Assembly: GCA_937925645.1 (NCBI GenBank)
Contig: CALAMB010000331.1
Location: 1-13,029 of the forward strand
Origin: an uncultured Acidobacteriota bacterium
GTDB lineage: Bacteria; Acidobacteriota; JAAYUB01
Direction of reading: 5' to 3'
DNA length: 13,029 nucleotides
This document shows positions 776-11,369 of the stretch, one piece after another (position 1 is the first letter of the stretch; the number at the start of each line of letters is the position of its first letter). The notes beneath the pieces are model-generated. The model was not told where the DNA came from, searched no databases, and saw only the letters and a program-made list of their open reading frames with translations. The position numbers were made by a program, and so were the translations under genes.

Positions 776-2491
776 TCAGGGTTGCGATTCCTCGAGCTTG
801 GCAAGCCGCGACAGCAGCGCATCAAGACGCCGGATTTCCGATTCAATGGAACGCGTCCCCTGGGCCTGAATCGCCCGGGCCTGTTCCCGGGCGCGCTCGG
901 CCGTGGTGACCGTTTCGCTCAGGATCGCGTGAATTTCCGCCTGCAGTTTTCGGCGGCTTTCCATGACGCGCTCCTCGAAATCTTTCACGATGCGATTCGC
1001 GTTGGCCAGGAGCATCAGGTCCTGGTATTCCCCCATGCGCCGCTCCAGGGCGAGAAGTTTGCGTTGCCTCGTCCGGATCAGGTTCCGCAGCCACCCCACG
1101 ACGGTCTGTTGGGTGTAGTTCATCAGCGACGTGTAGTACAGGCTGCTGCGCACCCGAAAGCCGATCTCAGGCTCCACGACTTGCGGCAGCGCGGCAAGGG
1201 CGGGATCGCCTGTCATCGCCAGCTTGCTGAGAAAATCATTCGCCAGACTGACAAATCGCGCCATGGCCTCGACGTATAACGATTCCGCGGCGGGTTGTGC
1301 TTCGGCCAGCCAGAGATCGAGCCAGCGCTGGGTGATCGCGTGCACGCATTGGACCGCCCAATCGCGCGACACGGGACCGCGTTGACGATCTTCCGCGCGC
1401 AGGACGGTGCTGAGTTCTTGTCGGCTCTCCGGCTGGGCCCGCCGCAGAAACGAGTCCTTCTGCTCGGCGAACAATCGGCTGAGGCGATCCTGCTCGGCAG
1501 TGAACAGATACCCCAAGTCGCTCAACGAAACCGCGGCCTCGGCCACCAGCGCGTGCAACTTTTCCACCCGGAGCTGTGATGCTTCGACGGGCCGAAGCAG
1601 CGCGTCCCGCTGTTCCGCCAACGCATGCCGCAGCCGTCGCGCCAGCATGGCGAAGCCGCGCGCCTCTGCCTGCCGAACCAGTTCCCCCTTGGAATGATAC
1701 GCCAGCCGGTGCATCGCCGCCACCAGGTCGGGCCAGCCCCTGGGCTCGTCGGCTCCGGCGAGCCGTTCCGCCGCGCTCACCTCGATGAGCGGCGGGATGT
1801 CCCGTCCCAGCCGCTCGCGGAGAATGCGGCGGGTGAACGCCGCCGCCGCGGCTCGGTCGGCGTCGGTCTGCTTGTCGGCTTTGCCGAGGACAAAAACCAG
1901 CTCGGGACACTGCCGGGCGATCTCCTCGATCAGAACCAGCTCCTCGGCCGAAATCGGCGGATCCGTTCCCAGAACCACGAGTGCGGCGTCGATGTGGGGC
2001 ACGAACGCCCGCGTGGCTTCGGTGTTGTCGATGAACACCGAGCCAATCCCCGGCGTGTCCACCAGGCACAGACCGCCTTCGAGCAACGGGCTTGGCGTGA
2101 GCACTTCGACTACCGCCACCCCCCGGCCGTTTTCCGGGTTTTTCTCCTCGGTGACGTATTCGGCGATCGCGCCGGGCTCGATGTCGGCCCACGAGCCGTC
2201 GGCGAACTGGACGCGGGCGGCACACGACTTCCCGTACCGGATGATGGTGACCACCACCGTCAAGGGAACGACGCCGACCGGCAGGACCCGCTCCCCCATC
2301 AGCGCGTTGAGCAGCGTGGATTTGCCGCGCTTGTACTGCCCCACGCAGACCACGTAGAACCGACCGGCCCGAACGCGCCCGGCCAGCGAGCGGGCGTCGG
2401 CGGCCATCGGTTCGCAGCCGGCCTCAACAGCCAGGCGCTGAAAGCTGTCGAGCCGGGAATCGTCGGATTGGCTGGAGCGTAATTCCGTCAT
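776..2491 (-). CDS. Bacterial dynamin-family GTPase
   Basis: This 571-residue protein is a large GTPase of the dynamin superfamily, a group that binds and remodels membranes in a GTP-dependent way. The P-loop GQYKRGKST is at residues 51-59 (Lys57, Ser58), the G2 threonine lies near T82, G3 is DTPG at 145-148, a G4-like GKAD at 203-206 replaces the usual N/TKxD, and VSA at 238-240 fits G5. Residues about 270-571 are charged and helical, with likely coiled coils around 290-350 and 475-570, as expected for the neck/stalk. No clear transmembrane hairpin is visible, so membrane contact would be through an amphipathic tip or a partner. The start ATG has a GGCGGGA Shine-Dalgarno 6 nt upstream that can be masked by the preceding fluoride aptamer (2524-2573). 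That leader is the unusual feature and suggests induction by fluoride. It is a single gene rather than the tandem pair seen in some bacterial dynamin operons. Confidence 0.9.
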   Translation of the reverse strand: MTELRSSQSDDSRLDSFQRLAVEAGCEPMAADARSLAGRVRAGRFYVVCVGQYKRGKSTLLNALMGERVLPVGVVPLTVVVTIIRYGKSCAARVQFADGSWADIEPGAIAEYVTEEKNPENGRGVAVVEVLTPSPLLEGGLCLVDTPGIGSVFIDNTEATRAFVPHIDAALVVLGTDPPISAEELVLIEEIARQCPELVFVLGKADKQTDADRAAAAAFTRRILRERLGRDIPPLIEVSAAERLAGADEPRGWPDLVAAMHRLAYHSKGELVRQAEARGFAMLARRLRHALAEQRDALLRPVEASQLRVEKLHALVAEAAVSLSDLGYLFTAEQDRLSRLFAEQKDSFLRRAQPESRQELSTVLRAEDRQRGPVSRDWAVQCVHAITQRWLDLWLAEAQPAAESLYVEAMARFVSLANDFLSKLAMTGDPALAALPQVVEPEIGFRVRSSLYYTSLMNYTQQTVVGWLRNLIRTRQRKLLALERRMGEYQDLMLLANANRIVKDFEERVMESRRKLQAEIHAILSETVTTAERAREQARAIQAQGTRSIESEIRRLDALLSRLAKLEESQP

Positions 2492-2497
2492 GCGTCG

Positions 2498-2529
2498 TCC
2501 CGCCGCTGGATACGTATGGCGCGGCAGGA
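2498..2529 (-). promoter_or_regulatory. Shine-Dalgarno-sequestering expression platform
   Basis: On the minus strand TCCTGCCGC (2529-2521), the tail of the fluoride aptamer, is complementary to GCGGCGGGA (2506-2498) with one G-U pair. The second element contains the Shine-Dalgarno of the dynamin gene, 6 nt from its ATG. The loop is 14 nt. The first TCC of the tail also belongs to the pseudoknot strand GACTCC, so ligand-bound aptamer and masked ribosome site should compete. This predicts a translational ON switch. The pairing is seen directly; the mechanism is inferred. Confidence 0.6.
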
Positions 2530-2573
2530 GTCATCAGCCCGTGGGGCGGTTAGGCGGGGGACTCCATCCCCAA
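2524..2573 (-). ncRNA. Fluoride riboswitch aptamer (crcB motif) before the dynamin gene
   Basis: Read on the minus strand, P1 is GGGG (2571-2568) with CCCC (2559-2556), enclosing the loop ATGGAGTC. P2 is GCCC-CAC-GGGC (2547-2537). The loop strand GGAGTC (2565-2560) is perfectly complementary to GACTCC (2532-2527), giving the defining pseudoknot. The conserved joins TAACC before P2 and CTGATGACTCCTGC after it match the fluoride riboswitch family closely. The aptamer ends about 32 nt before the dynamin ATG, with no terminator in between. Fluoride aptamers normally activate downstream genes. Fluoride exporters, enolase and pyrophosphatase are known targets; a dynamin is not one that I know of. 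Confidence 0.88.
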
Positions 2574-2584
2574 ATCAGACGGAG

Positions 2585-2613
2585 AAACTAACATTATTGC
2601 CGATTGAAATCAA
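2585..2613 (-). promoter_or_regulatory. Candidate promoter for the dynamin riboswitch transcript
   Basis: TTGATT (2608-2613, read on the minus strand) and TAGTTT (2585-2590) are spaced by 17 nt and would start RNA a few bases before the aptamer. The -10 match is weak (3 of 6). The local base composition is AT-rich compared with the surrounding genes. Confidence 0.3.
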
Positions 2614-2695
2614 GGCGAGTTTGACCGGTGCGATGAGTCCGCTCATCCGTCAATCCCATAACCTGTCGGCATCCAGCCGAATCATCCTGACCCGA

Positions 2696-3136
2696 TCATT
2701 CAGGATTCCGTCCGGTGACGACACCGGAGATCCGGCGGATGCGCGATTCGATCTCCTTCACCAGTGGGTCGAGATACGCGGCCGCAGTCGGGTCCACCGG
2801 CCCGTACCGCTTCATGTAGCGGCTTTCCAGTTCGATGATCCACTGTCGCGCCACGGCGCATGTCGCCCAGATGATTTGGGATGTGCTTTGATGCATCGGC
2901 TTCAGGCTCAACCGTTCCTGCATGTCGGACATGATCCGGTATAGTTCCCGAACTTCACTCCTGATCGCCTGTTTCTGCTCCTCCGTGAGCGGATTGATCT
3001 CCTGGTACATCGGCGCTTCGTATGCCCGTCCATCCGCCCAATCCGAAAATTCACACAGATACTGGGCCAGTTTGCCCAGCGTCACTGAAAGCCCCCGCAG
3101 ATGGTTCTCGGTGAGTCCCAGCGTATCTTCAACCAT
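2696..3136 (-). CDS. Hypothetical helical protein between the two riboswitches
   Basis: A 146-residue protein I do not recognise. It has no signal peptide or obvious membrane segment, and its many charged and amphipathic stretches suggest an all-helical cytosolic protein. Notable are a Trp/Tyr-rich part in residues 30-50 and a helix of type ELYRIMSDMQERL around 65-78. An AGGAG ribosome site lies exactly 6 nt before the ATG (3143-3147), and the base composition fits a real gene. It is on the same strand as the dynamin gene, 204 nt upstream of it, and diverges from eno. A promoter was not clearly identified; TATATT at 3212-3217 (minus strand) is a possible -10. Its position between two fluoride-controlled genes makes a role in the same response possible, but nothing in the sequence shows a function. 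Confidence 0.75.
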   Translation of the reverse strand: MVEDTLGLTENHLRGLSVTLGKLAQYLCEFSDWADGRAYEAPMYQEINPLTEEQKQAIRSEVRELYRIMSDMQERLSLKPMHQSTSQIIWATCAVARQWIIELESRYMKRYGPVDPTAAAYLDPLVKEIESRIRRISGVVTGRNPE

Positions 3137-3238
3137 TTTTTGCTCCTGCGTTGTCGATATTCAGATCCCGTCAACGATAGTGTTCAGAGCGCTGCCGGTC
3201 CGAACAGGAGCAATATACGTCTGACGGATAAAATTGTA

Positions 3239-3268
3239 TTGATCTTTCAGCCCTCCTGGAATGATAAT
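3239..3268 (+). promoter_or_regulatory. Promoter of the eno leader
   Basis: TTGATC (-35, 3239-3244) and GATAAT (-10, 3263-3268) are separated by 18 nt. Transcription would begin near 3275, just before the first base of aptamer helix P1 (3278), as expected for a riboswitch leader. The fit to the consensus plus this position gives moderate support. Confidence 0.55.
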
Positions 3269-3277
3269 TCACGCATA

Positions 3278-3325
3278 CAGGGATGGAGTTCCCTGAAAAC
3301 GCCTTCGGGCTGATAACTCCTACCA
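3278..3325 (+). ncRNA. Fluoride riboswitch aptamer (crcB motif) before enolase
   Basis: P1 is CAGGG (3278-3282) with CCCTG (3291-3295), around the loop ATGGAGTT. P2 is GCC-TTCG-GGC (3301-3310). The loop strand GGAGTT (3285-3290) pairs perfectly with AACTCC (3315-3320) to form the pseudoknot. The join AAAAC before P2 and CTGATAACTCCTAC after it match the fluoride riboswitch consensus. Enolase is inhibited by fluoride, and eno is a known member of the fluoride regulon in other bacteria. The pairings differ in sequence from those of the dynamin leader but keep the same structure, so base pairing is conserved between the two copies in this window. Confidence 0.9.
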
Positions 3326-3364
3326 GCTTGGCGGTGGGGTCATCGGACCGATTAATCACCCACC
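3318..3364 (+). promoter_or_regulatory. Antiterminator / anti-antiterminator switch of the eno leader
   Basis: GGTGGGG (3333-3339) has two possible partners. Upstream, TCCTACC (3320-3324 plus 3318-3319, with two G-U pairs) overlaps the pseudoknot strand. Downstream, CCCACC (3359-3364) is the 5' arm of the terminator. Without fluoride the first pairing would free the terminator; with fluoride the pseudoknot occupies CTCC, so GGTGGG can capture the terminator arm and transcription continues. The complementarity is seen; the order of folding is inferred. Confidence 0.6.
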
Positions 3365-3383
3365 AGCCCGGTGGGTTTTTGTT
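3358..3383 (+). terminator. Intrinsic terminator serving as riboswitch attenuator
   Basis: ACCCACC (3358-3364), loop AGCCC and GGTGGGT (3370-3376) form a perfect 7-bp stem followed directly by a T-rich tract (3376-3383, TTTTTGTT). It lies between the fluoride aptamer and the eno ribosome site, with no gene upstream on this strand, so it acts on the leader RNA rather than ending a gene. Confidence 0.85.
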
Positions 3384-3401
3384 TGAAATCCGATGCCTTG
3401 A

Positions 3402-4709
<1,308 letters not shown>

Positions 4710-4768
4710 CGCGGCTCCCGCGGCGGGCCGCTATCGGGTCGGCATCTTGCGCACGGGTGGCGGCAGCG

Positions 4769-5422
4769 ATGGAATTCAGCTGTTTTGTGGGCCGTGAACG
4801 GGAACTCCGTCAGCTCAAACAGGCGATCGCGGGCGGTGCCGACGTGATCCTCAGCGGGCGGTTTGGAATCGGCCGCACGAGTCTGGCACAGCAGGTCGCC
4901 ACCCGGCTGGAAGGACGCTATCGATTTGTTTTTCTTGACGGACAGCAGACCCCGGCCCTGCTCTGCCGTCAGATCATGACGGCACTCAATCCGGCGCAGG
5001 ATGGTCCGATCAGCTACAAGACCGGGCGCGTCCGGCTTCGCATGCTGCTGCAATCGGCCGCCCCGCCGTCCGTGTTCATCCTGGACAACATCTCCAGATT
5101 GTCAGCACCCAAGATCGAATTCCTGCGCCTGCTGTCCCGGGAGCGGCACAACCGCTTTATCCTCATTGTGGAGCCCTTTCTTCCCTCCGCCGACCTGGCC
5201 CGACTGCGCTCCATGTTCACCCCGATGTCGGAAACTCGCCTGGGTTATCTATCTCTGCGCAGTTCCATGGAATTTTTTCGCCGGCATGCCGCAGCTTACT
5301 CGTTAGGCTGGAGCGAGGCGGAGATCGACGCACGGGCCCGCGCCTGGGGCGGCTATCCGTTGAACATGCGCGCCAGCATCGAAATGGAATTAAAACGGTT
5401 GGCCACGCTGAAGTCTTCCTGA
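4769..5422 (+). CDS. Small AAA/ORC-like ATPase with altered Walker A
   Basis: A 217-residue P-loop protein that begins with FVGREREL, the usual opening of AAA ATPase domains of the AAA_16/ORC type. The Walker A region is GRFGIGRTS (30-38), where the normally invariant Lys is Arg36. A Walker B-like strand VFILDN (102-107) has Asn in place of the catalytic Glu. A sensor-2-like WGGYPLNMR lies at 193-201. It may therefore bind nucleotide weakly or not hydrolyse it. The ATG at 4769 is preferred because GGTGG lies about 8 nt upstream and the family motif starts at once; a GTG at 4757 would add four residues. It lies 59 nt after eno with no convincing terminator between, so it may be co-transcribed under the fluoride leader. 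It has no extra effector domain, and its role is unknown. Confidence 0.75.
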   Translation: MEFSCFVGRERELRQLKQAIAGGADVILSGRFGIGRTSLAQQVATRLEGRYRFVFLDGQQTPALLCRQIMTALNPAQDGPISYKTGRVRLRMLLQSAAPPSVFILDNISRLSAPKIEFLRLLSRERHNRFILIVEPFLPSADLARLRSMFTPMSETRLGYLSLRSSMEFFRRHAAAYSLGWSEAEIDARARAWGGYPLNMRASIEMELKRLATLKSS

Positions 5423-5578
5423 GCGTACACGAATACCGCTTCAGCGCACGCACGGTTCGGGTCATGACGGGTATTTTCATCCCGGCATGGACCCGCTGCC
5501 TAGAGTCTGTTAGACTGGGTGGCCGGTTGCAGCCGGATTTGCGGCCGGGCCATCATCCGGTTTTTGGGAGATGACATC

Positions 5579-6457
5579 ATGGGCGAGCTGTTCGCCCTCA
5601 CCTGCGCCATCATCTGGGCCTGCGCCGTGATCCTGCTGAAACGCTCCGGCGAGACGGTCTCGCCGTTCGCGCTGAACTTTTACCGCGTGTCCGTGTCCAG
5701 CACGCTGCTGCTGGTCACCCTGCTGTTCATGGGGGAGCCGCTGCTCCGCGCCGACGTGACGCTGTCCGACTACCTCATCCTCATCCTGAGCGGCATCATC
5801 GCCATCGGCATCTCCGACACGCTGTTCCACCTGAGCCTCAACATGATCGGGGCGGGCATCTCGGCTATCGTGGACTGCCTCTATTCCCCCTTCACCGTCG
5901 GCCTGGCCTGGCTGTTGCTCGGCGAGCACCTCACGGCGTTGCAGCTCCTGGGCATGGCGCTGGTGATGGCGGGCATGCTCGCCGCCGCCGGCCACGCGCC
6001 GCCGGCCGGCGCCAGCCGTCGCCAGATCGTCATCGGCGCCGCCTGGGGCGTGCTGGCGATGTTCACTCTGGCGCTGGGGATCGTCATCGCCAAGCCGGTG
6101 CTGGAACACACGCCGGTGATCTGGGCCACGACGGTGCGTCAGATCGGCTGCCTGGCGGCGCTGCTGCCCATCGCGGTGGTTTCGCCGAAGCGGCGGGAGC
6201 ACCTGGCCGTGATCCGCCCCAACCGCGACTGGCGGTTCATGCTCCCCGGCGCCATCCTCGGCTCCTACCTGTCGCTGATCTTCTGGATCGCCGGCATGAA
6301 ATACGTCGAGGTGGGCGTGGCGGCCATCCTCAACCAGTCCAGCACCATCTACGTGCTCATCCTGGCCGCGATCTTCCTGCGGGAGCCCTTCACCCGTCGC
6401 AAGGCGATCGCCTCGCTGGTGGCGCTGGCGGGCATCCTGCTGGTCACCGTCGGTTGA
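5579..6457 (+). CDS. EamA/DMT-family transporter
   Basis: A 292-residue inner-membrane protein of the drug/metabolite transporter superfamily, with two EamA repeats of about five helices each. Repeat 1 covers roughly residues 1-140 and includes the ALNFYRV segment of EamA domains. Repeat 2 covers about 155-292 and ends with the typical NQSSTIYVLILAAIFLREP followed by RRKAIASLVALAGI. The substrate cannot be predicted. The ATG at 5579 is chosen because of GGGAG 8 nt upstream and because the protein then begins directly in the first helix; an in-frame GTG at 5519 would add a non-membrane leader. The next gene starts 16 nt after its stop codon, so the two are probably co-transcribed. Confidence 0.92.
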   Translation: MGELFALTCAIIWACAVILLKRSGETVSPFALNFYRVSVSSTLLLVTLLFMGEPLLRADVTLSDYLILILSGIIAIGISDTLFHLSLNMIGAGISAIVDCLYSPFTVGLAWLLLGEHLTALQLLGMALVMAGMLAAAGHAPPAGASRRQIVIGAAWGVLAMFTLALGIVIAKPVLEHTPVIWATTVRQIGCLAALLPIAVVSPKRREHLAVIRPNRDWRFMLPGAILGSYLSLIFWIAGMKYVEVGVAAILNQSSTIYVLILAAIFLREPFTRRKAIASLVALAGILLVTVG

Positions 6458-8338: not shown

Positions 8339-8731
8339 ATGGCAAACCGCAAGGGTGAGAAAATCGGCTGGACTTTCGGCTGGCTGGGCGGCTTCATCTG
8401 GGTGGCCGTGCTGGCGGTTGTCTTCATGTTTCAACATCAATGGCCCGCCGCCTTGGCGGGACTGGGACTGGTGGCCCTTGCCGTGGTCGCCATCGTGCTG
8501 AGCGCGCCGTGGCGACACCCCACGACCCGTTACTGGAAGCTCATGCTGATTCCCTACGCTCTGTTTATTCTCGCGGTGGTATGGGCTGTGTGGGCGTTCG
8601 GCCTGATGGGCGATCCCGGCCTCGCCTGGTGGCAGTTCGCCTGGGTCCTGACCACCCTCACCCCGCTGGTGATCATCGGTCGGTGGCGATGGAACGACTT
8701 TGCGCAGAAAACAGAGAATTGCAAACAGTAA
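8339..8731 (+). CDS. Small membrane protein with about four helices
   Basis: This 130-residue protein has hydrophobic segments at about residues 14-32, 35-55, 68-88 and 96-113 and a positively charged N-terminus (MANRKGEK). The ribosome site AAGGAG (8325-8330) lies 8 nt before the ATG. I do not recognise a family. The last residues (QKTENCKQ) and the stop codon are encoded by a heptamer repeat region (8707-8748), so the natural C-terminus may have been altered by repeat growth. It lies 236 nt after the hydrolase fusion gene and is probably a separate unit. Confidence 0.75.
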   Translation: MANRKGEKIGWTFGWLGGFIWVAVLAVVFMFQHQWPAALAGLGLVALAVVAIVLSAPWRHPTTRYWKLMLIPYALFILAVVWAVWAFGLMGDPGLAWWQFAWVLTTLTPLVIIGRWRWNDFAQKTENCKQ

Positions 8732-8748
8732 ACAGCTTGCAGAAAACA
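8707..8748. repeat. Phased heptamer repeat GNAAACA spanning a stop codon
   Basis: In 7-bp phase the sequence reads GAAAACA, GAGAATT, GCAAACA, GTAAACA, GCTTGCA, GAAAACA; four of the six units match GNAAACA. An 11-bp direct repeat GCAGAAAACAG occurs at 8704-8714 and 8739-8749. The TAA stop of the small membrane protein falls inside the unit GTAAACA. Confidence 0.6.
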
Positions 8749-8831
8749 GCAGGCGATTGACATCGGATGCGATTGGGATTTGTCGAGTGGATACCAGCGG
8801 CCTAACCCATCACGAGTCTTGAAAGTGGGGC

Positions 8832-8857
8832 ATTCCCTGGTGCAGCTCCAGTGGAAT
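8832..8857. repeat. Hairpin in the gap between convergent genes
   Basis: ATTCCCTGG (8832-8840) pairs with CCAG-T-GGAAT (8848-8857) with a single bulged T and a 7-nt loop. A second inverted pair TTGGGATT (8773-8780) / AATCCCAA (8855-8862) overlaps it. It lies between a plus-strand and a minus-strand gene and might act in 3' processing or termination, but no T-tract follows on either strand. The rest of 8732-8938 shows nothing else I can name. Confidence 0.35.
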
Positions 8858-8938
8858 CCCAAAAATTTCCAACCTCCCTTCAGCCATCAACTATAAACTC
8901 ATCAACCGTTTTCTAACTGGCGACTGTGCGCATCGACC

Positions 8939-11287
8939 TCACCGGCTCACGGGCAGCGTCGGGATCAACCCGTCCAGGTGCGCCATCAGTATGGCCAGGT
9001 CGGTCACGGTGATCCGGCCGTCGCCGTCCAGATCGGCCATGTCCGGTGACGCGACGAACGGCGCCTCCCCCGCCAGCAGCGAGCCGGCCAGATAGCCCGC
9101 CATGATCTGCGCGTCGAAGAGCGCGACCTCGCCGTCGAGGTCCAGGTCGCCGTAGCCGTTGTAGGGCGGCGCCGATGGCTCCATCACCGCCAGCGTCGCC
9201 GAGCGCGCCGGCAGCTCCAGCGCCAGCGCCCCGCCCGGCGCCGCCGCCGTCCCGGCCGGGCCCAGCCGGTGCGTGGCGTCAAAGCGGTACAGTGCGGCCG
9301 CGTAGGAATCGCCGCCGGCCACGCTAACCGCCGCGGTGTGCGGCACCGTGTCCTTGTTGAAGAGGAGCACGTAGAGCCGCCCGTCGCCGCGCACCTGCGC
9401 GTAGGCGCCCACCTGGTCCACGTTGGCGCTTTCAGCCCGTACCGATTCGCCCGTCACTTGCGCCCCGCCCCCGTCGTAATCCAGGTAGAGGCGGAACGCG
9501 TCCTCCACCAGGCTGTCGGCGTCGGGCGCCACCCAACGCGTGGCCAGGTCCACGCCCTCACGGGCAAAAATGGAGAGGACCTCCGCCTGCGCCAGGGCGT
9601 TGCTGACCGACGCATCGTTCGTCCCCCACGAGTACTCGGTGATGGCCAGCTTCACCGCCGGGGCGCGCGCGGCGATCCATTCCTTCATCCGCGGGATGAG
9701 GCGGACCGCCTGGCCGATCCACGACTCGTCGACATACGCCGGGTCGTACAGGCTCTTGACGGAGCGCAACCGCTGCTCCGCGATCGCTTCGCTCGTCGAG
9801 TAAATTCCGCCCTGCGGGTAATAGTGGATGTCCAGGTAATCCACGAGCCGGATCCCGTGCGCCTGCTCGTACGCGGTCATCTGCTGGAGGTACCACTCGA
9901 GAAACGGCAGTCCGCCGTGGGCCTGGCGGTCGGGCCCGTCGGGACAACCGTCGGCGGCCGATGTGAAGTACGCGCACCAGCCCCACACCACCGGCCCCAA
10001 CACCTCGGCGGACGGGTCCGCCGCCTTGACCGCCGCGGCGTAATCCACAGTGCGCTGCCAGACCTCGTCGTAGGTGGCCGGCGCCGGATGGACGTCGCGA
10101 TGGGTGCTGTTCCAGAGCATGGGCTCGTTGTCCAGGGCGTAGAACCGGATCCCGCCCTGGGCCGCGGTGCCGTTCCGGGCGACGAGGTGATCGATCCAGT
10201 CGGCGACGAAATCGGAGCCGATAGCGACGGAGGTGTCCGCAGGATCGTTGCCCGTCACGTCGGCACCGCCCACCAGGATGCCGTTGCCGGCGTCGGGGCG
10301 GCACCAGGCGGGGTAGCCGGTGGCGCTGCACTCGGTCTCGGTCTGGGCGCCGTACTTCTGCACCGAGAAGCCCCAACGGACCGAGCGGTCCCGGGGCGTC
10401 CAGCCGATGAGCGGCACCGTCAGAAGCACCTCGCGGCCGGCGTCCAGCGCCTCGTCGGCGAACACGTCGGCGGACGAGTCGTCGGGCAGCCGCTCCGGGT
10501 GTGGGTTGTCTTCGGGGATGTTCAGGAAGAACCAGTCCATGGCCCGGTTGCCCGTATCGGCGAGCCACGAGTAGCGCGTGGTGTGGTTGCCGCCCCAGCG
10601 GCGCACCGTGAAACCGGGCGCGTCGAGCTGGGCGGCCGCGCCGAAGCTGACCCCGTAGATCAGCGGGGAAACGGGCCGGCGGTCGGCGGCCGGATTGACG
10701 CTGACCGTCACGGTCGTGGGCTCAGGGGGCGGGCCGGCGCGCTCGGCGACGAGGATGTCGTCGACGTATACCGTCGCCTGGTCGCCGCCGGACCGGTCCT
10801 GCAGGCAGAAGCCGTTCATCACGCCGGCCGCCAGGCCCAGGTCCGCGAACGGCACCCGCACGCGCACCCACCCCCCGCCCGGCAGGACGCCGCCCGGCAG
10901 GTAGTTGGCCAGGGGCGCCGAACCCGCCAGCGACGTGCCGGTGTACAGGGCCACGGTGAGCGCCTGGCCGCCGGCGGCGCCGCCGTGGATCCAGAAGTCG
11001 AACGCCTCGTACGCGTCGGTGCTCAAGCCGGAATCCACGTGGAAGTAGATGCCCGCCCAGCCGTCGGGCTCGAACGATACGGCCGCGGTGCCGGTATGGA
11101 CCACCGCCGACTGGGTCAGATTGCGGGTGGCCCAGCTCCAGTCCTGGAAGCCGTTGCGGAGCCCGTCGTCGTAGATGACGCGGTCTGCCGCATGCACGGT
11201 CGGTGGCGCGATGAAACAGAGGATCAGTCCGCAAATTCCGATCGCGCTGAGCCAAAATGCGCCGCGGTGTTCGTTTCGATGCAGCAT
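8939..11287 (-). CDS. Secreted GH44 glycoside hydrolase with dockerin-like repeats
   Basis: A 782-residue secreted polysaccharide hydrolase. Residues 1-33 are a signal peptide (FWLSAIGICGLILCF core, likely cut after VHA). Residues 34-185 look like a beta-rich carbohydrate-binding or jelly-roll module, joined by a Pro-rich linker (184-190). About 195-700 is a glycoside hydrolase family 44 domain, known for endoglucanase/xyloglucanase activity on beta-1,4-glucans. The likely acid/base is E388 in LDNEP and the nucleophile E551 in AITEYSWG; WGGNHTTRYSW (231-241) is also typical. Two Ca-binding dockerin-like repeats follow, starting DLDLDGE (714-720) and DLDGDGR (752-758). The ATG at 11287 is chosen because the signal peptide starts there and GAGGGAAGG lies upstream; a further-upstream start at 11365 would precede the signal peptide. 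No cohesin or other CAZyme gene is nearby. Confidence 0.93.
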   Translation of the reverse strand: MLHRNEHRGAFWLSAIGICGLILCFIAPPTVHAADRVIYDDGLRNGFQDWSWATRNLTQSAVVHTGTAAVSFEPDGWAGIYFHVDSGLSTDAYEAFDFWIHGGAAGGQALTVALYTGTSLAGSAPLANYLPGGVLPGGGWVRVRVPFADLGLAAGVMNGFCLQDRSGGDQATVYVDDILVAERAGPPPEPTTVTVSVNPAADRRPVSPLIYGVSFGAAAQLDAPGFTVRRWGGNHTTRYSWLADTGNRAMDWFFLNIPEDNPHPERLPDDSSADVFADEALDAGREVLLTVPLIGWTPRDRSVRWGFSVQKYGAQTETECSATGYPAWCRPDAGNGILVGGADVTGNDPADTSVAIGSDFVADWIDHLVARNGTAAQGGIRFYALDNEPMLWNSTHRDVHPAPATYDEVWQRTVDYAAAVKAADPSAEVLGPVVWGWCAYFTSAADGCPDGPDRQAHGGLPFLEWYLQQMTAYEQAHGIRLVDYLDIHYYPQGGIYSTSEAIAEQRLRSVKSLYDPAYVDESWIGQAVRLIPRMKEWIAARAPAVKLAITEYSWGTNDASVSNALAQAEVLSIFAREGVDLATRWVAPDADSLVEDAFRLYLDYDGGGAQVTGESVRAESANVDQVGAYAQVRGDGRLYVLLFNKDTVPHTAAVSVAGGDSYAAALYRFDATHRLGPAGTAAAPGGALALELPARSATLAVMEPSAPPYNGYGDLDLDGEVALFDAQIMAGYLAGSLLAGEAPFVASPDMADLDGDGRITVTDLAILMAHLDGLIPTLPVSR

Positions 11288-11369
11288 TGCCTTCCCTCTT
11301 TGAGTAGTTGCGTGGGTGACAATCCCGGCAGCAGTCGCTGGAAATCCGATAAATTCAGAAGCCAATTGA

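Follow-up and report, generated by a model that had tools for sequence, protein, structure and literature searches.

Fluoride riboswitches ahead of bacterial dynamin genes: a candidate membrane arm of the fluoride response

Why would a bacterium place a dynamin-like GTPase behind a fluoride riboswitch? The question is raised by contig CALAMB010000331.1 of an uncultured Acidobacteriota bacterium (assembly GCA_937925645.1), a stretch of 13,029 nucleotides referred to here in its entirety as the window, in which a first-pass annotation had placed such a riboswitch at 2491-2613, in the minus-strand leader of a dynamin gene. Known fluoride defences consist of export, pH and ion balance, and the replacement or bypass of inhibited enzymes. 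From the analysis reported here it would seem that in some bacteria part of the response to fluoride poisoning is membrane remodelling or repair, and we put at roughly 60% the probability that the window holds a fluoride-response locus in which a riboswitch-induced dynamin forms a dedicated membrane-remodelling arm.

The window aptamers and the dynamin gene

When Rfam 15 was searched by cmscan at the gathering threshold (34 bits for RF01734) with the entire window as query, two full-length RF01734 elements were the sole matches above threshold (Table 1). The first, aptamer 1, lies inside the interval originally proposed, and the covariance-model check that the first-pass annotation had named gave 52.8 bits against the cut-off; P1 (GGGG/CCCC), P2, the conserved joins and the 6-bp loop-to-tail pseudoknot (GGAGUC/GACUCC), all of which had been described from the letters alone, were present in the cmscan alignment. 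Aptamer 1 is an ordinary RF01734 aptamer, with 26 nt between its 3' end and the dynamin ATG. It scored 63.9 bits with our own covariance model, R1, its sequence being itself among R1's 50 training rows. Over 50 aptamers picked by P1 and the pseudoknot, P2 having played no part in the picking, 98.3% of cells were paired and 45 cells had changed on both sides, whilst the P1-plus-pseudoknot descriptor gave 85 matches across the window and 81 fetched loci (82 sequences), two of them probably false, and 0 in the same sequences when reversed. The second aptamer, in the leader of a divergent enolase gene, was absent from the first-pass annotation.

Table 1. Coordinates of features in the window
Feature	Position	Strand	Basis
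Dynamin-like GTPase, 571 aa, ATG start	776-2491	-	Pfam Dynamin_N
Proposed expression platform of the dynamin leader, 9-bp hairpin	2498-2529	-	UCCUGCCGC (2529-2521) / GCGGCGGGA (2506-2498), RNAfold
Fluoride riboswitch aptamer 1 (dynamin leader)	2518-2580	-	RF01734 52.8 bits, E 1.8e-12, full length 1-64
146-aa protein, N-domain homologue, no Pfam family	2696-3136	-	hmmsearch E 2.4e-8, alignment A3
Fluoride riboswitch aptamer 2 (enolase leader)	3270-3329	+	RF01734 47.3 bits, E 1.1e-10, full length
Intrinsic terminator, enolase leader	3358-3384	+	stem 3358-3376, then T-rich run; terminator scan, RNAfold
Enolase, 427 aa	3426-4709	+	Pfam Enolase_N/_C; NCBIfam eno equivalog 637.8 bits, cut-off 300
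AAA ATPase, 221 aa (start 4757 or 4769)	4757-5422	+	Pfam AAA_22/AAA_16 over cut-off

The dynamin open reading frame matched Dynamin_N (PF00350) at 92.8 bits (E 3.1e-26; cut-off 27). The G1 (G-Q-K-R-G-K-S) and G3 (DTPG) motifs were invariant over 21 aligned rows and the GTP-binding motifs are intact, with G4 reading GKAD where the consensus is NKAD. An AF2 model of the protein (pLDDT 81.2, pTM 0.52) has a long helical neck or trunk with a tip between helices, and its nearest solved folds are IniA, mitofusin, the C. jejuni dynamin-like protein (DLP) and BDLP; as modelled, the fold would cover the bacterial dynamin architecture. NCBIfam yielded no equivalog above cut-off for it, the DynA equivalog (NF052648) scoring 51.3 bits against a cut-off of 1600, and the protein is a bacterial dynamin of a subfamily without a name, which may function like DynA though not classed as DynA. 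Among viral contigs a single distant dynamin was found, at 36% identity over query residues 44-246, which was uninformative.

Both window aptamers lie in a 5' leader with a plausible expression platform. In the dynamin leader, a 9-bp hairpin was present in the RNAfold minimum-energy structure (-17.3 kcal/mol for the hairpin region alone); its 5' arm uses three bases of the pseudoknot 3' strand and its 3' arm is the purine-rich stretch just 5' of the ATG. Pseudoknot and hairpin are presumably mutually exclusive, and as the two could not coexist, fluoride binding should expose the dynamin start; the leader would then be a translational ON switch within a fluoride response. The enolase leader instead carries an intrinsic terminator, one of 3 found in a scan of 2400-3500 (0.8 in shuffles), whose stem also appears in the RNAfold structure. 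By inspection, pairing is possible between CCUACC (3319-3324), which shares two bases with the pseudoknot strand, and GGUGGG (3333-3338), and the latter could alternatively pair with CCCACC (3359-3364) of the terminator, an arrangement that would make this leader a transcriptional ON switch.

Conservation of the riboswitch-dynamin link

The best 120 of 1390 dynamin homologues comprised the window protein itself, two at 88-90% identity and others at 48-59%. Loci from named genomes were fetched for the best 80 of at least 546 relatives (profile A1), which are mutually related; these genomes were mostly metagenome-assembled genomes (MAGs) of Acidobacteria, along with Myxococcales, Deltaproteobacteria and Binatia, one labelled Rokubacteria and one Anaeromyxobacteraceae. 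Of the 76 genomes carrying these loci, 74 had RF01734 at E <= 0.001 and 72 over the cut-off (20/20, 30/30 and 22/26), a single genome having as many as 21 copies, whilst 4 of 14 control genomes were positive. Over the 888 kb of loci and the window, R1 (50 aptamers) gave 122 matches at E <= 0.05, of which one (L028 273-359, E 0.018) was later left out, leaving 121 riboswitches.

Locus genes were taken from a crude gene caller written for this analysis, and a dynamin was counted as direct when it lay less than 450 nt behind a riboswitch with no called gene between. This was so in 19 of the 80 loci (10 in Acidobacteria, 4 in Myxococcales, 3 in Deltaproteobacteria and 2 in Binatia); a further 38 had the dynamin downstream of a riboswitch with only same-strand genes between, as apparent operons, six were interrupted and two had a riboswitch elsewhere. 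Of the 121 riboswitches, 39 had a dynamin as the first gene behind them, 8 an Na+/H+ exchanger and 6 enolase; for 19 the caller placed no gene inside 500 nt, some of these preceding dynamins that it had missed (L001, L002, L008 and L010).

As the 80 loci had been selected via the dynamin, three evenly drawn genome samples were taken, in which the p-values are guides only, since the sampled genomes are related and not independent. In sample a, 151 genomes from the class of Acidicapsa dinghuensis (G016), RF01734 was found in 94 genomes and the dynamin (E <= 1e-30) in 26; RF01734 was present in 25 of these 26 carriers against 69 of 125 non-carriers (Fisher p 3e-5), at least 51 of the 60 dynamin matches lay within 10 kb of RF01734, and at least 46 had a same-strand RF01734 no more than 6 kb upstream. 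Sample b, 188 genomes from the phylum of a Myxococcales MAG (G004), had RF01734 in 13 genomes and the dynamin (E <= 1e-60) in eight, with RF01734 in 5/8 carriers against 8/180 others (p 3e-5); five of nine dynamin matches, covering all five positive carriers, had a same-strand RF01734 90-151 nt upstream. In sample c, 148 genomes from the phylum of a Binatia MAG (G009), RF01734 (63 genomes) occurred in all 18 dynamin carriers against 45 of 130 non-carriers (p 4e-8). Here 16 of 18 dynamin matches, counting one to only the C-terminal part of the profile (G496), had a same-strand RF01734 75-398 nt upstream, and the remaining two had one on another contig. The expectation that homologous dynamin genes would carry the motif upstream was therefore borne out, directly in 19 of the 80 loci and in samples b and c, and the covariance match together with a leader conserved before homologues supports, at the level of sequence, the claim of the first-pass annotation that a fluoride riboswitch controls this dynamin-family GTPase.

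A FastTree phylogeny of 125 dynamin rows separated two main kinds, 'long' dynamins of approximately 700 aa and 'short' ones of approximately 580 aa, although one 'long' row (L043_4) fell among the short rows. Both kinds were found directly behind riboswitches (23 long and 20 short, window included). The direct and operon states changed 9 times among the rows with a state, a figure to be read with a long-branch warning and with states that rest on crude gene calls, and riboswitch control thus seems to outlive gene rearrangement. The nearest rows to the window dynamin (L001, L002, L006 and L004) were all direct, and the fifth-nearest, L003, came from a locus without a riboswitch.

Pairing between the pseudoknot strand and downstream sequence was stronger than in shuffles across this collection, with a median z of -1.9 over the 121 riboswitches (75 at <= -1.5) and of -2.0 over the 39 dynamin-first riboswitches; the window enolase leader gave -1.0. 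Terminator-like sites were found at 12 of the 121, and at just one of the 39 dynamin-first riboswitches; because such sites are few, transcriptional control of this group was set aside and translational control is favoured.

Neighbouring genes and the recurrent module

The long dynamins have an N-terminal extension of approximately 200 aa, the first 150 or so residues of which also exist as a separate protein. The window carries one such protein, of 146 aa, homologous to the extension of the approximately 700-aa fluoride dynamins of other genomes and to stand-alone versions elsewhere, the E-value in Table 1 being that of the extension profile in an hmmsearch against a set of short proteins. 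Its identity to distant rows of alignment A3 was 15-23%, and a protein database search gave only 3 matches; the predicted structure is a helical bundle (pLDDT 82.7), for which Foldseek gave nothing at E <= 0.001, and no riboswitch was found directly 5' of its gene. By analogy with the assembly domain of C. jejuni DLP1/DLP2 (PMC6104087; published sources are cited here and below from portions of their texts), an assembly role is suggested for the N-domain. Small proteins of 108-146 aa that adjoin the dynamin in L005 and L019 were considered and are not the N-domain: these unknown-family proteins are encoded at 5358-5684 (+) of L005, behind a fluoride riboswitch of its own (5274-5341), and at 4947-5387 (+) of L019.

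Downstream of the enolase gene, the AAA ATPase is a possible second gene of the enolase operon. It belongs to a recurrent AAA-like family (profile E 3e-10 among 744 proteins) that was found in 30 of the 80 dynamin loci and whose representative scores below the Pfam cut-offs, the window member scoring above them. The module in the window hence consists of a riboswitch-led dynamin, the N-domain protein and a riboswitch-led, divergent enolase-AAA pair, and from gene order the dynamin, the N-domain protein and the AAA ATPase may form one machine. Elsewhere in the window, an 808-aa open reading frame at 8939-11365 (-) combines glycoside hydrolase family 44 and dockerin domains.

Gene families, each named from one representative per cluster, recurred across the 80 loci: small DUF190 in 36, the AAA-like ATPase, double DUF190 in 29, CrcB in 23, a 188-aa protein in 18, enolase in 16, UspA in 14, Na+/H+ exchanger and HEAT in 12 each, metallophosphatase and pyrophosphatase in 10 each and MutS_V in 9. 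In some loci reading frames overlapped, joining dynamin-enolase (L004), enolase-dynamin (L077), dynamin-AAA (L031, L034, L038 and L076) and AAA-N-domain (L031 and L076). A fluoride island was found in an isolate, Acidicapsa dinghuensis 4GSKX (L053, 1-13605), which would suit experimental work and in which riboswitch-enolase is followed by riboswitch-dynamin(700)-CrcB-188aa-DUF190-DUF190-dynamin-DUF190-dynamin-HEAT and then by a MutS_V pair. This genome had 14 RF01734 matches, 12 over the cut-off and 13 on one contig within about 133 kb, and four dynamins, three in the one operon and the fourth nearby. The 188-aa protein of L053 (4226-4792, +), between CrcB and DUF190, had no Pfam or NCBIfam match. 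In L005, a dihydroxy-acid/6-phosphogluconate dehydratase gene (8355-10028, -) stands behind a fluoride riboswitch (10093-10162).

Genes of the CMAS (cyclopropane fatty-acid synthase) family offer a hint towards the membrane. In L068 such a gene (1849-3135, +) begins 236 nt behind a riboswitch that scored over the Rfam cut-off (47.6 bits), and this membrane-lipid enzyme is probably under fluoride control. In L029, L036 and L048, a weak riboswitch-like element (R1 34.9-35.6 bits) is followed on the minus strand by metallophosphatase, CMAS-family (3328-4608, 3452-4732 and 3296-4579, respectively), HEAT and dynamin genes, and a divergent strong riboswitch leads a second dynamin.

Possible roles and known systems

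In the proposed mechanism, a rise in cytoplasmic fluoride would lead aptamer 1 to bind F-/Mg2+ and form its pseudoknot, whose strand would become unavailable for the start-masking hairpin, turning dynamin translation on; the divergent enolase-AAA transcript would be turned on by relief of its intrinsic terminator. The dynamin, as a putative GTPase of the IniA/DynA/BDLP kind that remodels or seals membranes, the N-domain protein and AAA ATPase being its probable partners, could limit membrane damage or proton/hydrogen fluoride (HF) leak during fluoride stress, complementing export (CrcB) and the replacement of inhibited enzymes (enolase and pyrophosphatase). A membrane role is favoured because of the fold family, the sealing proposed for DynA, the effects of HF and fluoride on membranes, the CMAS-family genes and the exchangers near some of the dynamins, and it fits better than replacement of a GTPase, though the role itself is read from fold family and neighbours.

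Several observations weigh against this reading. Fifteen of the 80 loci had no riboswitch, six of these having less than 1 kb of upstream DNA, and no riboswitch was detected in three carriers of sample b (G270, G344 and G382, the last with its dynamin match in two fragments) or in one carrier of sample a (G131, a 295-aa frame). The alternative hairpin exceeded shuffles in strength by only a modest margin (z -1.9 for the window dynamin, with 5 of the 39 dynamin-first riboswitches having z above 0), the element before the CMAS-family run did not reach the Rfam cut-off in L029 (29.2 bits) or L048 (26.8 bits), and a Pfam scan of nine window proteins turned up no fluoride exporter. The association is, moreover, a computed one, as are the aptamers, the gene order and the fold family; fluoride binding and induction, the direction of switching, membrane action and the partnership of the three proteins are what we infer from them.

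Other explanations were weighed against the membrane role. GTPases are classically trapped by metal fluorides, and the first-pass annotation had offered target replacement as an alternative; in the form weighed here, fluoride would inhibit the dynamin by AlF4-/MgF3- trapping and the riboswitch would make more of it, as proposed for enolase. The enolase in the same locus fits this, as do the two or more enolase matches found in 16 of 25 carriers tested (hand-chosen from the 76, one second match being partial); however, 122 of the 151 genomes of sample a had no Dynamin_N match at E <= 1e-6 and only 29 had any, and since the dynamins in that sample mostly lie in fluoride loci, most genomes would have no housekeeping copy in need of replacement, which makes the proposal improbable. 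Metal-fluoride transition-state complexes (GDP with AlF4- or MgF3-) elsewhere lock dynamin G-domain dimers, and the dynamin could conceivably be fluoride-tuned itself, assembling on the membrane together with both putative partners (N-domain protein, AAA ATPase) and using GDP-AlF4-/MgF3- as a second trigger that clamps the sealing state. We give this elaboration little credence; if true, fluoride would both induce the dynamin, via RNA, and lock its assembled, membrane-sealing form.

We also consider it unlikely that the dynamin serves as an exporter partner, placing or gating CrcB/Fluc channels or ion exchangers together with DUF190 (PII-like) and AAA proteins and remodelling no membrane, an idea for which the frequency of CrcB, small DUF190 and Na+/H+ exchanger genes in the loci and the L053 operon speak. 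Among the 19 direct loci CrcB was called in 2 and an Na+/H+ exchanger in 5, but 13 had neither (with the crude caller, and some contigs short), and neither was found in the window. That the dynamin is a passenger, an unrelated LeoA/DynA-like defence gene brought under fluoride control by chance, would accord with the protection that DynA affords B. subtilis populations against phage (PMC8844932) and with the PADLOC result, which consisted of weak G-domain matches only (LeoA E 3.2e-11, over the G domain alone). A riboswitch directly upstream in several lineages and two dynamin clades, and a link that persists through the 9 state changes on the tree, leave chance a poor explanation, to which we attach a low probability. 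The reading that a genuine aptamer has no control over the dynamin, being decayed or part of a different transcript, draws on the minus strand of 2400-3500, where a scan for sigma-70 type promoters alone found no promoter-like site; it is scarcely credible for a full-length aptamer with an intact core so close to the ATG, with an alternative hairpin that covers the dynamin start region and with the same element in the leaders of relatives.

The membrane-remodelling reading, if true, would extend fluoride resistance to the membrane by way of a conserved dynamin module under riboswitch control, shared by Acidobacteria, Myxococcales, Deltaproteobacteria and Binatia, and a poorly understood group of bacterial dynamins would gain both a defined inducer and an assay that is simple to run. 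A further use would lie in engineering microbes that survive the fluoride set free from organofluorines.

Enolase is a known fluoride-riboswitch gene (PMC5533749, PMC11139923), and the loci described here resemble the FRM island of E. cloacae, in which the operon ppaC-uspA-eno-gpmA-crcB-orf5249 is under a fluoride riboswitch (PMC5533749): both are multi-gene islands that use the same aptamer family and place enolase, pyrophosphatase, UspA and CrcB under control. They differ in that the six-gene FRM operon has no dynamin, a word that is absent from the main text of PMC5533749. Of the genes listed for the crcB motif by Weinberg et al. 2010 (PMC2864571), mutS and formate-hydrogen-lyase-like subunits recur in these loci, the latter as NADHdh behind a riboswitch in L005 and Proton_antipo_M in the L040 locus, whilst its main text mentions neither dynamin nor GTPase nor enolase.

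The window dynamin shares its fold and GTPase domain with IniA, DynA, BDLP1 and Cj-DLP1/2, and bacterial DLP genes are often paired in operons (PMC6104087), like the long and short fluoride dynamins. Under stress from nisin or phage, B. subtilis DynA gathers in clusters at membranes, where it has been proposed to seal damage (PMC6104087, PMC8844932); HF crosses membranes, fluoride exposure accompanies cytoplasmic acidification, and membrane changes under fluoride have been reported (PMC11139923). The inducers and stresses named for bacterial DLPs in the portions of papers searched are antibiotics and phage, with fluoride-riboswitch control in none of them, and no paper in the literature searched pairs a fluoride riboswitch with a dynamin, although Baker et al. 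2012 or its supplement may list the pairing. Relative to the literature so searched, the riboswitch-dynamin pairing is new as a conserved part of the fluoride regulon in several lineages.

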